A DNA stretch of 64,000 nt, from positions 124,001 through 188,000 of the forward strand of contig NZ_FNUM01000005.1 in NCBI RefSeq assembly GCF_900107995.1, given 5' to 3'. The notes beneath the pieces were generated by a model. It was not told the DNA's origin. It made no database searches and saw nothing but the letters and a program-made list of their open reading frames with translations. Position 1 is the stretch's first letter. Every line of letters starts with the position of its first letter. Both the position numbers and the translations under genes were made by a program. This stretch comes from Alcanivorax sp. DSM 26293 (lineage in GTDB: Bacteria; Pseudomonadota; Gammaproteobacteria; Pseudomonadales; Alcanivoracaceae). Shown here in pieces: positions 11,053 through 31,101 of the stretch.

Positions 11053-11328
11053 GAGCTACAAGCTCCAAGCTGCAAGCTACAACGCGGATCCGGGTTTGCC
11101 GGATCCGATAGGAAAGAGGCCGCGTCCAGAGTCTGGGTGCGGCCTCTTTGCGTTCTACGGAGCCGCTGTAGGAGCGCCTCTTGAGGCGCGAACCGAGCGA
11201 CAGCGAGGAAAGGGCCAGAAATGGCACCCGATCCCGTATGGGGCTGACGGCGGGTTTCTGATCGTCCGCCGGACGATTCCGCGTTTACACGCGGTTCGCA
11301 CCTCAAGAGGTGCTCCTACAGGTGGTTA
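11053..11328. repeat. Composite hairpin repeat after the OYE gene
   Basis: This gap holds an AGCTACAAGCTCCAAGCTGC arm fragment (about 11050-11070), a terminator-like hairpin of the GAGGCCGCG...CGCGGCCTC family (about 11115-11148), and a long REP-like inverted pair: 11166-11194 (CTGTAGGAGCGCCTCTTGAG) against 11293-11321. It lies between convergent genes and likely terminates both transcripts. Confidence 0.65.
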
Positions 11329-28236: not shown

Positions 28237-28523
28237 TTAACAGTTAACAGTGAATAGTTAACAGCTGCGCGGGGCCTGGTTGGTGCCGGGCAGAGAATGT
28301 TTGAGGCCGCGCCCATTAAGTGGGTGCGGCCTTTCTGTTTGAACAACCCTTACCTGCGAAGCCGCTGTAGGAGTTCCCTTCCAGGGGACGAACCGAGCGA
28401 CAGCGAGGCAGGGTGCCAGATACAACAAGGCCGCGCCCATCATCTGGGCGCGGCCTCTTGGTTTTCCGTACCTGAAGGTGTTCGACGCGCAGCTATTAAC
28501 TATTCATTATTAACTGTTAATTG
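28236..28523. repeat. Composite nested hairpin element between trpC and vfr
   Basis: Outer arms of the TTAACAGTTAACAGTGAATA type (28236-28271 and 28486-28521) are near-perfect reverse complements ending in GCTGCGCG. Inside are two terminator-like stems of the AGGCCGCGCCC...GGGCGCGGCCT family (about 28303-28332 and 28428-28458) and a REP-like GTAGGAGTTCCC unit at 28368. It sits between convergent genes and likely terminates both. Confidence 0.75.
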
Positions 28524-28527
28524 CTCT

Positions 28528-29157
28528 TCACCGCGTCCCGTAAACCACCATGGTCTTGCCTTTCACGGACACCAGGCCCTGTTCTTCCAGGTTCTTCAGA
28601 ACCCGGCCGACCATTTCCCGGGAGCAGCCGACGATGCGGCCGATTTCCTGGCGGGTGACCTTGATCTGCATGCCGTCCGGGTGAGTCATGGCGTCGGGCT
28701 GTTTGCACAGGTCCAGCAGGGTGCCGGCCACGCGGCCAGTGACATCCAGAAACGCCAGGTCGCCCACCTTGCGGGTGGTGGCGCGCAGGCGGCCGGCGAT
28801 CTGGGCGGAGACGGCGAACAGGATGTCGGCGTCTTCCCGGGCCAGCTGTTTGAACTTGCCGTAGCTGACTTCCGCGACTTCGCACTCGCTCTTGGCTTTC
28901 ACCCAGGCCGAACGGGAGGGATCATTCTCGAACAACCCCATCTCACCGAAGAAATCCCCTTCATTCAGGTAGGCCATGATCATTTCGCGACCATCGTCGT
29001 CTTCGATCATGACCGTCACGGAGCCCTTCAGAATGTAGTAAAGCGCATCCGATTCATCACCCGCATAAATGATAGTGCTCTTCGCCGGATACTTGCGGCG
29101 ATGGCAGTGGGCCAGAAACTGGTCCAGATTTGGAATAATTTTGTTGCCGTCAGTCAT
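28528..29157 (-). CDS. vfr: cAMP-activated global regulator, CRP/Vfr family
   Basis: 209-residue CRP-family transcription factor. The nucleotide-binding fold includes [20 protein letters not shown] and [20 protein letters not shown], with the Glu and the Arg-Ser of the cAMP pocket. The C-terminal helix-turn-helix is [20 protein letters not shown], followed by [10 protein letters not shown]. The position between trpC and osmC/speD is the same as for Pseudomonas vfr, which is the reason for that symbol over crp. In this group it controls motility, secretion and carbon use. Confidence 0.92.
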
Positions 29158-29457
29158 GGGCGCTCAATATTAAGCCAGAAAAATGTCTTAGCTGATAAGC
29201 GTAAGGATATTGCCTGTTTTTATCATTGATGCCAAGGGAACTGGCTCTCACTCTCAATTTTCACAGGCTCAACGGTGGCTTATGGCTGACCGGCACCGGA
29301 TAGGCAGGGGATGGATCGGGGGGCCGGGCAGGAAAAATTATCTGCGATCCGGCCCCCTGAGGGGGTGGCGGCGCCCCCGCGCTATGGTACTCTGCGCCCC
29401 CTTTCGGGGCTGGAAAATACCGGCCCGGAGCGGTGACTGGAAGCTGGGAGATTCCCC
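29158..29457. promoter_or_regulatory. vfr/osmC divergent intergenic region
   Basis: A 300-bp gap holding both promoters. It contains a strong hairpin: GGGGGCCGG at 29319-29327 pairs with CCGGCCCCC at 29349-29357 around an AT-rich loop. This is followed by the osmC leader with GGGAG at 29446-29450. I did not find a clear TGTGA-N6-TCACA site that would indicate vfr autoregulation. Confidence 0.4.
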
Positions 29458-29883
29458 ATGAAAGCAGTGGTTAAATGGCAGGGCGAAGCCTGCTATGAAG
29501 CGCAGACAGAAAGCGGCCATACGGTGCTCATGGATGGACCGCCGGACCATGGTGGCCAGAATCGCGGGCCGCGTCCCATGGAGACCCTGTTACTGGGTGT
29601 CGGCGGCTGCTCTTCCTTTGATGTGGTACATATCCTCAAGAAGTCCCGCCAGGACGTGACAGACTGCCGTTGCGAGCTGACCGCGGAGCGTGTGGATGAG
29701 GGGCCGGCGGTATTCAGCAAGATTCATCTGCACTTCATCGTCAGCGGTAATAACCTGAAAGAGGCCCAGGTGAAGCGGGCCGTGGAGCTGTCGGCGGAGA
29801 AGTATTGCTCGGCCAGCATTATGCTGACCCGAGGTGGTGTTGAGATCACCCATAGTTATACCATTGAGGGCCAGGAAGCTTGA
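29458..29883 (+). CDS. OsmC-family protein
   Basis: 141-residue OsmC/Ohr-fold protein (YhfA-like subgroup). GPRPMETLLLGVGGCSSFDV carries the first reactive-type Cys, and SAEKYCSASIMLTRGGVEIT the second (KYC-S). In OsmC enzymes this pair reduces organic hydroperoxides; YhfA-like members have no proven substrate. The TGA stop is part of the first stem-loop of the speD leader, so osmC and speD may share a transcript. Confidence 0.88.
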   Translation: MKAVVKWQGEACYEAQTESGHTVLMDGPPDHGGQNRGPRPMETLLLGVGGCSSFDVVHILKKSRQDVTDCRCELTAERVDEGPAVFSKIHLHFIVSGNNLKEAQVKRAVELSAEKYCSASIMLTRGGVEITHSYTIEGQEA

Positions 29884-30007
29884 CCCCTGGCCGGTCAAGG
29901 TGTCCGGCGCAAGCCGGAGAGACCATGAGGTCTCGCAAACAGGTAACCGCAGACGCTGCGGTGGTGTGTTGGTTCTATTGTGGCGGTGACGCCTACGGGG
30001 TACAGCT
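29880..30007 (+). ncRNA. Structured 5' leader of speD with five stem-loops
   Basis: Between osmC and speD five short perfect stems follow each other: SL1 TTGACC/GGTCAA (29880-29885, 29893-29898); SL2 TCCGGC-GCAA-GCCGGA (29903-29918, GNRA tetraloop); SL3 GAGACC-ATGA-GGTCTC (29919-29934, start codon of an upstream ORF in the loop); SL4 ACCGCAG-ACG-CTGCGGT (29946-29962); SL5 GGCG-GTGA-CGCC (29982-29993, GNRA tetraloop). SL2 and SL3 abut. The density of perfect stems in 114 bases is hard to see as chance. I know of no named RNA family here. Regulatory function is inferred from position and the coupled ORF. Confidence 0.6.
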
Positions 30008-30014
30008 GTGGTGA
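29925..30014 (+). CDS. Upstream ORF (leader peptide) coupled to speD
   Basis: A 29-codon frame too short for usual gene calling. GGAG at 29916-29919 is five bases before the ATG, which itself sits in the loop of a 6-bp hairpin. The peptide starts MRSRKQV and ends [15 protein letters not shown], rich in aromatic residues and Cys. Its TGA (30012-30014) overlaps the speD GTG start at 30011 as GTGA, the classical arrangement for translational coupling. Such a uORF could sense polyamines or S-adenosylmethionine through ribosome stalling, as for other polyamine-gene leaders. There is no direct evidence of translation. Confidence 0.5.
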
Positions 30015-30814
30015 AAGATCCCAATCCCAAGATTACGGTTCATGGTTTCAACAACCTGACCAAATCCTTGAGTTTCAATATTTTCGATATCGCCTATGCG
30101 AAGACGGAACAGCATCGCAAGGAGTACATTGAGTATATTGACGAGCTGTATAATGCCGAGCGGCTCACGGAGATTCTCACCAATGTGACCAAGATTATCG
30201 GTGCCAACGTGCTCAACGTGGCTCGTCAGGATTACGATCCCCAGGGCGCCAGTGTGACCATGCTGATCGCTGAGCATGAGACGCCGCCGGACGGTACCGA
30301 CTGGGATGAGGAAGCGCCGGGTCCGCTGCCGGATTCCGTGGTGGCGCATCTGGACAAGAGCCATGTGACGGTGCACACCTATCCGGAATCCCATCCGGAT
30401 AACGGCATTTCCACCTTCCGGGTGGATGTGGATGTGTCCACCTGCGGGGTGATTTCTCCGCTGCGTGCCCTGAACTACCTGATTCACAGCTTCGACTCCG
30501 ATATCGTCACCATCGACTACCGGGTGCGGGGCATGACCCGGGATCTGGACGGCACCAAGCACTACATTGATCACGACATCAATTCGATCCAGAACTTCCT
30601 GACCGAAGACACCCAGAACGCCTATCAGATGATCGACGTGAACGTGTACCAGGAGAACATCTTCCATACCAAGATGCTGCTCAAGGACTTCGACATCGAC
30701 AACTATCTGTTCGGTGCCGGCAGCGACGAGTTCGACAAGGAAGAACTGGAGCAGATCGAGGAGCGCCTGCGCACCGAGATGCTGGAGATCTTCTACAGCC
30801 GTAATATGGGATAA
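30011..30814 (+). CDS. speD: S-adenosylmethionine decarboxylase proenzyme
   Basis: Pyruvoyl enzyme that makes decarboxylated SAM, the aminopropyl donor for spermidine. 267 residues, the large gram-negative type close in size to E. coli SpeD. Self-cleavage to form the pyruvoyl group should occur at the Lys-Ser bond in [15 protein letters not shown] (about residues 116-117). [19 protein letters not shown] and [20 protein letters not shown] are conserved. Tandem GTG codons at 30008 and 30011 could start it; I prefer 30011, which overlaps the leader ORF stop. No speE is in the window, so the aminopropyltransferase must be elsewhere. Confidence 0.93.
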
Positions 30815-30822
30815 GAAGGGCA

Positions 30823-31101
30823 GTTAACAGTTAATAGTGAATAGTTAACAGTTCGCGCCCATCGTCAGTTGTAGTAGAAAGCAAAGAGGCCGCGCCCACA
30901 GGTTGGGCGCGGCCTCTTGCGTTTTATGGACATGCTCCTCTTTCGAAGCCGCTGTAGGAGCGCCTCTTGAGGCGCGAACCGTGCGAAGCACGGGAGATCA
31001 AACACTCCAGACCGTGACAGAGTTTCGATAGAGAGATCAGTAGGGTTTTGAAGGGTTGCCTCGCCAAGGCTCGGTTCGCGCCTCAAGAGGCGCTCCTACA
31101 G
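30823..31101. repeat. Composite hairpin element between speD and coq7
   Basis: The 307-bp gap holds one TTAACAGTTAATAGTGAATA-type arm (30823-30852), a terminator-like stem AGAGGCCGCGCCCA/TGGGCGCGGCCTCT (30884-30917) and a long REP-like inverted pair (30952-30980 with 31073-31101, exact 29-bp complements). A 45-bp core starting AGCAAAGAGGCCGCG is identical to one at about 55809-55853. No gene is seen. It lies between convergent genes. Confidence 0.72.

Follow-up and report, generated by a model that had tools for sequence, protein, structure and literature searches.

A structured RNA leader before speD in Alcanivorax, a narrowly distributed candidate cis-regulatory element

Introduction

In many organisms feedback acts on the synthesis of polyamines, often at the step of S-adenosylmethionine (SAM) decarboxylase, the product of speD. 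How speD is adjusted in Gram-negative bacteria is little described in the literature that we searched. Three RNA elements of other polyamine genes come closest to the one analysed here. The spermidine riboswitch is a variant of the SAM-I riboswitch that keeps the four-stem junction of SAM-I and stops transcription (PMC10853860). In the speF leader of Salmonella the switch is driven by translation of an upstream frame, orf34, which has a conserved domain (PMC6386406). The odc1 motif of alphaproteobacteria combines a conserved 11-residue upstream ORF with a single hairpin that contains a pseudoknot (PMC8632094).

We analysed the leader of speD in Alcanivorax, using a stretch of genomic DNA of 64,000 nucleotides (hereafter the window) and the corresponding loci of related genomes. 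The Alcanivorax leader resembles the spermidine riboswitch in being an RNA placed before polyamine-biosynthesis genes (PMC10853860), whereas it consists of tandem hairpins, matches no SAM-family model of Rfam and has no terminator-like site between osmC and speD; the four-stem SAM-I junction was not recovered with the SAM covariance models. It shares with speF/orf34 a long structured leader before a polyamine decarboxylase gene and a hidden ribosome-binding site, the latter being a prediction in Alcanivorax (PMC6386406), but its small ORF is conserved neither in frame nor in peptide. As in odc1, where the ribosome-binding site lies in the stem, there is a structured element at the start of a polyamine decarboxylase gene (PMC8632094), but gene, bacterial class and architecture differ, and among 16 Alcanivorax leaders, unlike in odc1, neither the length nor the peptide of an upstream ORF is constant. 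What the leader has in common with riboswitches in general is a conserved fold with a sequence-conserved core in front of a relevant gene.

A speD leader of this type was not found in the open-licence PMC literature. The main text of a survey of 104 candidate RNAs mentions neither speD nor Alcanivorax (PMC2864571), speD is absent from the main text of a small-RNA study of Alcanivorax dieselolei (PMC9788540) and from PMC5320573, and the accessible part of PMC11247311 names only speD2 of P. aeruginosa. In our view the Alcanivorax leader is a candidate cis-regulatory RNA that is new and has a narrow distribution.

Materials and Methods

The family search covered 46 genomes and speD was found in 45 of these. 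Seventeen belonged to the same genus as the window, and the gap between osmC and speD could be read in 16; the contig of the remaining genome (G012) begins inside speD and was excluded. Genomes were assigned to groups through contig ranges identical to those of named loci (L003 with L091, L004 with L095, L005 with L096, L006 with L097 and L007 with L107); L006 and L007 identify two of the 13 Alloalcanivorax genomes. Covariance model R1 was built from alignment A3, which has 14 rows (L091 and L085, which is near-identical to L084, were left out) and includes 16 coding bases. Model R2 was built from alignment A6, with 15 rows after L091 had been added back and with no coding bases, and alignment A4 holds all 16 rows. 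R2 was searched against even, partly overlapping samples of the order and of the class, and a further model (R3, see below) against the order, with the stricter filters of Infernal. In the tree-aware null, substitutions were replayed along a speD tree. The speD upstream regions of other genera were aligned in groups of 11 Pseudomonas/Azotobacter, 16 Marinobacter-type and 13 Halomonas-type loci, leaving out L013, L018, L027, L030, L035, L039, L060, L074 and L077, whose gaps were short or odd.

Results

The window is part of an Alcanivorax genome. Its SpeD is 97% identical to that of Alcanivorax hongdengensis, the nearest species-named protein, and 96% identical to those of Alcanivorax sp. DG881 and S6407; the highest identity (98%), above the named species, was to a Pseudomonadales MAG. 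The genes are arranged in the order crp (minus strand), an osmC-like gene, a gap of 124 bases, speD and a terminator-like hairpin at 30884-30918 (Table 1). The osmC gene lies directly 5' of speD in the same direction, an order that is kept in all 16 readable Alcanivorax genomes, where the speD start equivalent to that of the window is found 127-154 bases past the last aligned OsmC residue. No terminator-like site was found between the two genes in the window. The hairpin 3' of speD has 15 pairs and can be read on both strands, and GC-rich hairpins like it occur in the relatives. A candidate speE gene (spermidine-synthase N-terminal domain) is located on contig C15, unlinked to speD, and neither R1 nor R2 has a match on that contig.

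In half of the 16 genomes (L087, L088, L092-L096 and L101) an in-frame GTG or ATG is present at -24, within the loop of SL5, and a longer SpeD might be made there. Because the start-like codon in the SL5 loop of the window is out of frame with speD, GTG 30008 was retained as the start.

Two kinds of repeat were observed near the locus. A REP-like palindrome, TGTAGGAGCGCCTCTTGAGGCGCGAA, forms inverted pairs at 30953-30978 with 31075-31100 and at 11167-11192 with 11295-11320, and has 55 copies in the genome (25 forward and 30 reverse, at most 2 mismatches; none for the reversed control). An A/T-rich repeat, AACAGTTAATAGTGAATAGTTAACAG, has three copies in the window (28239-28264, 28493-28518 and 30826-30851), and stretches resembling it are found 3' of speD in relatives.

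Table 1. Features of the osmC-speD region in the window, and the leader of Pseudomonas/Azotobacter.
Feature	Position	Strand	Remarks
OsmC-family protein gene	29458..29883	+	NCBIfam NF008009, 157 bits (cut-off 138)
SL1, TTGACC/GGTCAA	29880..29898	+	5' arm includes the osmC stop codon, 29881-29883
R2 match (leader without coding bases)	29902..30007	+	102 bits
SL2, TCCGGC-GCAA-GCCGGA	29903..29918	+	GCAA loop in the window; loop variable in relatives
SL3, GAGACC-ATGA-GGTCTC	29919..29934	+	ATGA loop peculiar to the window genome
29-codon ORF of the sequence-only reading	29925..30014	+	present in the window, not conserved
SL4 domain, closing helix AACA 29938-29941 / TGTT 29967-29970	29938..29970	+	sequence-conserved core; 4x4 internal loop GGTA 29942-29945 / GGTG 29963-29966; hairpin 29946-29962
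SL4 hairpin, CCGCAG-ACG-CTGCGG	29947..29961	+	as read from the sequence
Linker, consensus nGTTCTAATGT (window GGTTCTATTGT)	29971..29981	+	conserved; possible anti-Shine-Dalgarno strand
SL5, GGCG-GTGA-CGCC	29982..29993	+	98.4% paired; 3 of 4 pairs invariant
GGGG, putative Shine-Dalgarno, -11 to -8 of speD	29997..30000	+	invariant in the 16 aligned rows
speD, S-adenosylmethionine decarboxylase, GTG start	30008..30814	+	TIGR03331, 466 bits (cut-off 256)
Pseudomonas/Azotobacter leader, consensus AATCGCCAnnGCGAAGAGGTGTnAACCGTCCTACGCAG-hairpin-CTGACGGGCATGC	within ~115 bases before speD		L053, L059, L061-L063, L066, L068, L070-L073

An earlier reading, made from the sequence of the window alone, had described five short hairpins before speD, and all of them are present at the places given. 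Judged within this genome, the leader fold is moderately unusual. The stretch 29880-30030 folds with a z of -1.71, and 17 of 200 shuffled sequences folded equally well; the z was -3.04 for the leader of 127 bases and -3.6 and -3.2 for SL1-SL3 folded locally. Values of -2.5 or lower were also reached by 6 of 35 crudely defined intergenic gaps of the same window. Given that the fold of a single genome is just moderately unusual, the case rests on the comparison with relatives.

In every one of the 16 Alcanivorax genomes that could be read, R1 gave a single strong match (above 70 bits), directly before speD; besides the speD leader it had no match above 20 bits in the genus. When the stretch from the end of osmC to the SL4 domain was folded locally, the mean z over the 16 leaders was -3.57 and p was at most 0.01 in 13 (dinucleotide shuffles); folds of L083, L084 and L085 were weaker (p 0.05-0.10), and for L091 the stretch folded ended before SL3. 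Whole-leader folds reached a mean z of just -2.1 over the 16. The hairpin at the 5' end (SL1) formed in 14 of the 16 local folds with its sequence free, and was absent in L084 and L085. The upstream hairpins are formed anew by strongly divergent sequences; the SL1 of L088, a perfect hairpin of 9 pairs, is one that differs from its counterpart in the window.

In a MAFFT-only alignment of 14 leaders, 92.6% of the cells were paired as proposed versus 37.9-53.9% with slid partners. In the model-fitted alignment of all 16, which leans towards the structure, the corresponding values for SL2-SL5 were 95.4% and 36.5-54.8%; both of these slid-partner controls favour a structure that was derived from the same sequences. 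Two-sided changes were seen in 9 of 26 pairs of the model-fitted alignment, and its covariation of 0.334 (0.153 when shuffled) was reached by none of 500 shuffles. The changes were frequent in SL3 (helix 2; 5 of 6 pairs, 96.9% of cells paired) and present in SL2 (helix 1; 3 of 6 pairs, 90.4% paired), and there is almost no variation in SL5 or in the helix that closes SL4, so that these carry little covariation information. RNAalifold, applied to a MAFFT alignment of the 16, called SL3-SL5 and missed SL1 and SL2.

The tree-aware null was more demanding. When only the proposed pairs were counted, 3 of 26 (A4) and 2 of 17 (A2) fell below 0.05, and when all column pairs were counted no proposed pair passed an E-value of 0.05 (best 2.5). 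Most of the top 25 column pairs were non-proposed (22 on A4, 24 on A2); the strongest is non-canonical, between columns 62 and 81 of A4 (E 0.06 over all pairs), and may point to a contact within the internal loop. Thus, with 16 related sequences, the comparison supports the hairpins clearly as a set and modestly pair by pair. The fold stands above chance because of its conservation in relatives, and on this comparative basis we take the RNA fold before Alcanivorax speD to be real. The structured leader claimed in the sequence-only reading is borne out by the strong model match in every readable genome and by the compensatory changes.

The same reading proposed that speD is controlled through a leader peptide, in which the translation of speD would be coupled to that of the 29-codon ORF, whose AUG is in the SL3 loop. 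The elements it named exist in the window: the ATG at 29925 is in the SL3 loop, GGAG is found at 29916-29919, and 29 sense codons end in a TGA (30012-30014) that overlaps GTG 30008 as GTGA. The stems are kept in relatives, unlike the small ORF. An ORF starting with ATG, GTG or TTG and ending at the GTGA overlap is found in 8 of the 16 leaders; the other 8 have no ORF that reaches the overlap and contain an in-frame TGA nine codons ahead of the overlap stop. The ORF starts with ATG in two leaders only, that of the window and that of L086, whose 41-codon frame encodes an unrelated peptide. At the start position the window has ATG and its three closest relatives have TTG, CTG and CTG; of the 5 further changes in the ORF among these four genomes, 4 are non-synonymous. 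This is the pattern that the sequences would be expected to have under constraint at the RNA level without coding constraint, and control by a leader peptide appears extremely unlikely.

The strongest sequence conservation was found in the SL4 hairpin with its 4x4 internal loop (GGUA/GGUG in the window) and closing CA/UG pairs, in the linker (nGUUCUAAUGU), in SL5 and in GGGGUACnGCU before the GTG; it was weakest in L091. The comparison shows that the helices of SL2-SL4 are kept by compensatory change and that the core SL4 domain, the linker, SL5 and GGGG are conserved in sequence. The finding that SL1-SL3 keep the hairpin and not its sequence would also suit a role as intercistronic hairpins of an osmC-speD transcript, which affect mRNA stability, processing or protein ratio only and sense nothing. 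Also in favour of this are the osmC stop codon inside SL1, the lack of a promoter-like site on the + strand in a simple sigma-70 scan of 29300-31000 and 29100-29500, and the short distance between osmC and speD, 31-39 bases, in 8 of 13 Alloalcanivorax genomes (L102, L103, L105-L110). Protection from decay alone, however, does not account for the sequence conservation of the core (SL4, the linker and SL5) beside the start codon, and we consider such a restricted role possible, though on the unlikely side.

GGGG is the only plausible Shine-Dalgarno sequence seen. When the 16 leaders were folded as ensembles together with 36 coding bases, three or more of the four G were predicted to be paired, at a probability of at least 0.69, in each genome, and the partners varied among genomes between CCC codons of speD, the linker and upstream parts of the leader. 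Extending SL5 by pairing GUUCU of the linker with GGGGUAC gave 93.2% paired cells versus 36-58% with slid partners; none of the pairs of the extended SL5 had a two-sided change and the covariation (0.129) was not above that of the shuffles (0.136). Synonymous diversity in codons 1-10 of speD was 0.01, compared with a mean of 0.29, and was the lowest of 258 windows of codons. This near-absence of synonymous change agrees with pairing of the early codons to the ribosome-binding site; it is not specific to the leader, because these codons are nearly invariant also in Alloalcanivorax without the leader. CAG (29940-29942) could pair with CUG at the start; this pairing is kept in 15 of 16 genomes with zero changes and is hence uninformative. 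Another candidate for an anti-Shine-Dalgarno pairing, that of AGCCG in the 5' strand of SL4 with CGGCU before the start, was rejected since by eye it is not kept across genomes. On this basis the leader probably controls translation of speD by hiding the ribosome-binding site.

The leader appeared confined to Alcanivorax in all samples searched. Among 293 genomes sampled from the order R2 matched 5, all of them Alcanivorax, in one place each, and among 369 sampled from the class it matched only the window's own genome, in one place; no genome of another genus matched the model (0 of 288 and 0 of 368, respectively). In Alloalcanivorax the gap between osmC and speD is 133-152 bases in L097-L100 and L104, with a sequence different from that of the Alcanivorax leader, and in the remaining family members it is up to about 490 bases. 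A leader may thus have disappeared or arisen within this genus, of which 8 of the 13 genomes have none of the Alcanivorax kind. R1, in a search of 80 of 126 sources (125 loci and the window), gave matches of 18-38 bits in Alloalcanivorax, to which the 16 coding bases of this model probably contribute. The best R2 match in Alloalcanivorax (13.1 bits, E 0.64; 49 sources) was at the right place and was discounted, as it scored below an unrelated match of 14.6 bits in L034.

A search for a known family was negative. Rfam 15 gave no match at the gathering threshold in the whole window, and no SAM-family model matched in 29800-30100 up to an E-value of 5 or in L087 and L094 up to 1. Laxer scans yielded no credible match: RAGATH-5 and ASdes scored far below their own gathering scores in 29800-30100, and seven matches in 17 of 20 selected loci (L010, L017 and L072 were left out for their size) were at or past the 3' end of speD and below gathering scores.

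The long conserved stretch between SL4 and SL5, unpaired in the basic model, is also what would be expected if a trans-acting protein or small RNA recognised the linker GUGUGUUnGUUCUAAUGU together with the SL4 loop and thereby regulated speD. As the model has a single strong match in a genome, which is the one at speD, the factor would have to be dedicated or to have other targets that are differently formed, and this possibility seems to us improbable.

In Pseudomonas and Azotobacter (11 loci) a different, strongly conserved structured leader precedes speD (Table 1), with 97.8% of the cells paired and two-sided changes in 4 of 21 pairs. Its covariance model, R3, matched 5 of the 293 genomes of the order, all of one family, and no Rfam match was obtained in L053, L061, L068 and L070. 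This Pseudomonadaceae leader is like that of Alcanivorax in being structured, in standing before speD and in having osmC upstream. The two models do not, however, recognise each other's leaders: R3 had no match in the window, L087 or L094 (43 sources searched) nor in five Alcanivorax genomes, and R2 had none in Pseudomonas L053, L061, L068, L070 and L072.

Conserved stretches of other kinds were observed further afield. The 16 Marinobacter-type loci (among L010-L033) have a block CCGCCGGTCTGCGCAAAAGGTGAACAACC...CGGTGGCGGC after a TGCATAATACGC box and before speD, followed by TCATCTCC, which could pair with the GGAGG ribosome site; L017 is without part of this. In the 13 Halomonas-type loci (among L034-L067) a hairpin GGTTCCGGCG-CTGGCT-CGTCGGGG is conserved near the speD start. 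In both groups the conserved stretches lie behind a TGCATAAT-like box, and their fold comes from RNAalifold only. In L060, L074 and L077 osmC ends 5 bases before the position that matches the speD start of the window.

The promoter-like TGCATAAT that is seen by eye between osmC and speD in other genera would be compatible with an element acting at the DNA level (for instance a promoter or a repressor site), of which the hairpins would be a by-product. Changes in SL2-SL4, however, preserve base pairs and not sequence, and the window has no promoter match, which makes a DNA-level element very unlikely. A possible -10 box in TTCTAAT was dismissed as it is not conserved (TTCTATT in the window, TGCAAAC in L091).

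Discussion

The reading that we favour, at about an even chance, is that a cis-acting structured RNA sets the translation of speD. This RNA would extend over roughly 105-119 bases, with SL2 at one end and the start codon of speD at the other, would be preceded by a 5' hairpin, and would be specific to Alcanivorax within the genomes searched. The core would fold into a domain that moves the GGGG ribosome-binding site from a hidden to an open state and back, the hiding strand being either the GUUCU linker, which would extend SL5, or the early CCC codons of speD. From the identity of the regulated gene, the domain might respond to a signal of the polyamine pathway and so provide feedback on speD. 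SL1-SL3 may insulate the core from translation of osmC and from mRNA decay.

A more specific version, rather unlikely in our estimation, is that the leader is a new class of riboswitch confined to Alcanivorax, in which the SL4 domain and linker bind spermidine, decarboxylated SAM or another compound of the polyamine pathway and gate the ribosome-binding site of speD, while Pseudomonas, Marinobacter and Halomonas would have evolved unrelated RNA sensors of their own for this gene.

Whichever version applies, a conserved RNA before speD in one genus, together with the other conserved leaders of neighbouring groups, would mean that RNA control has arisen repeatedly and independently at one enzyme.
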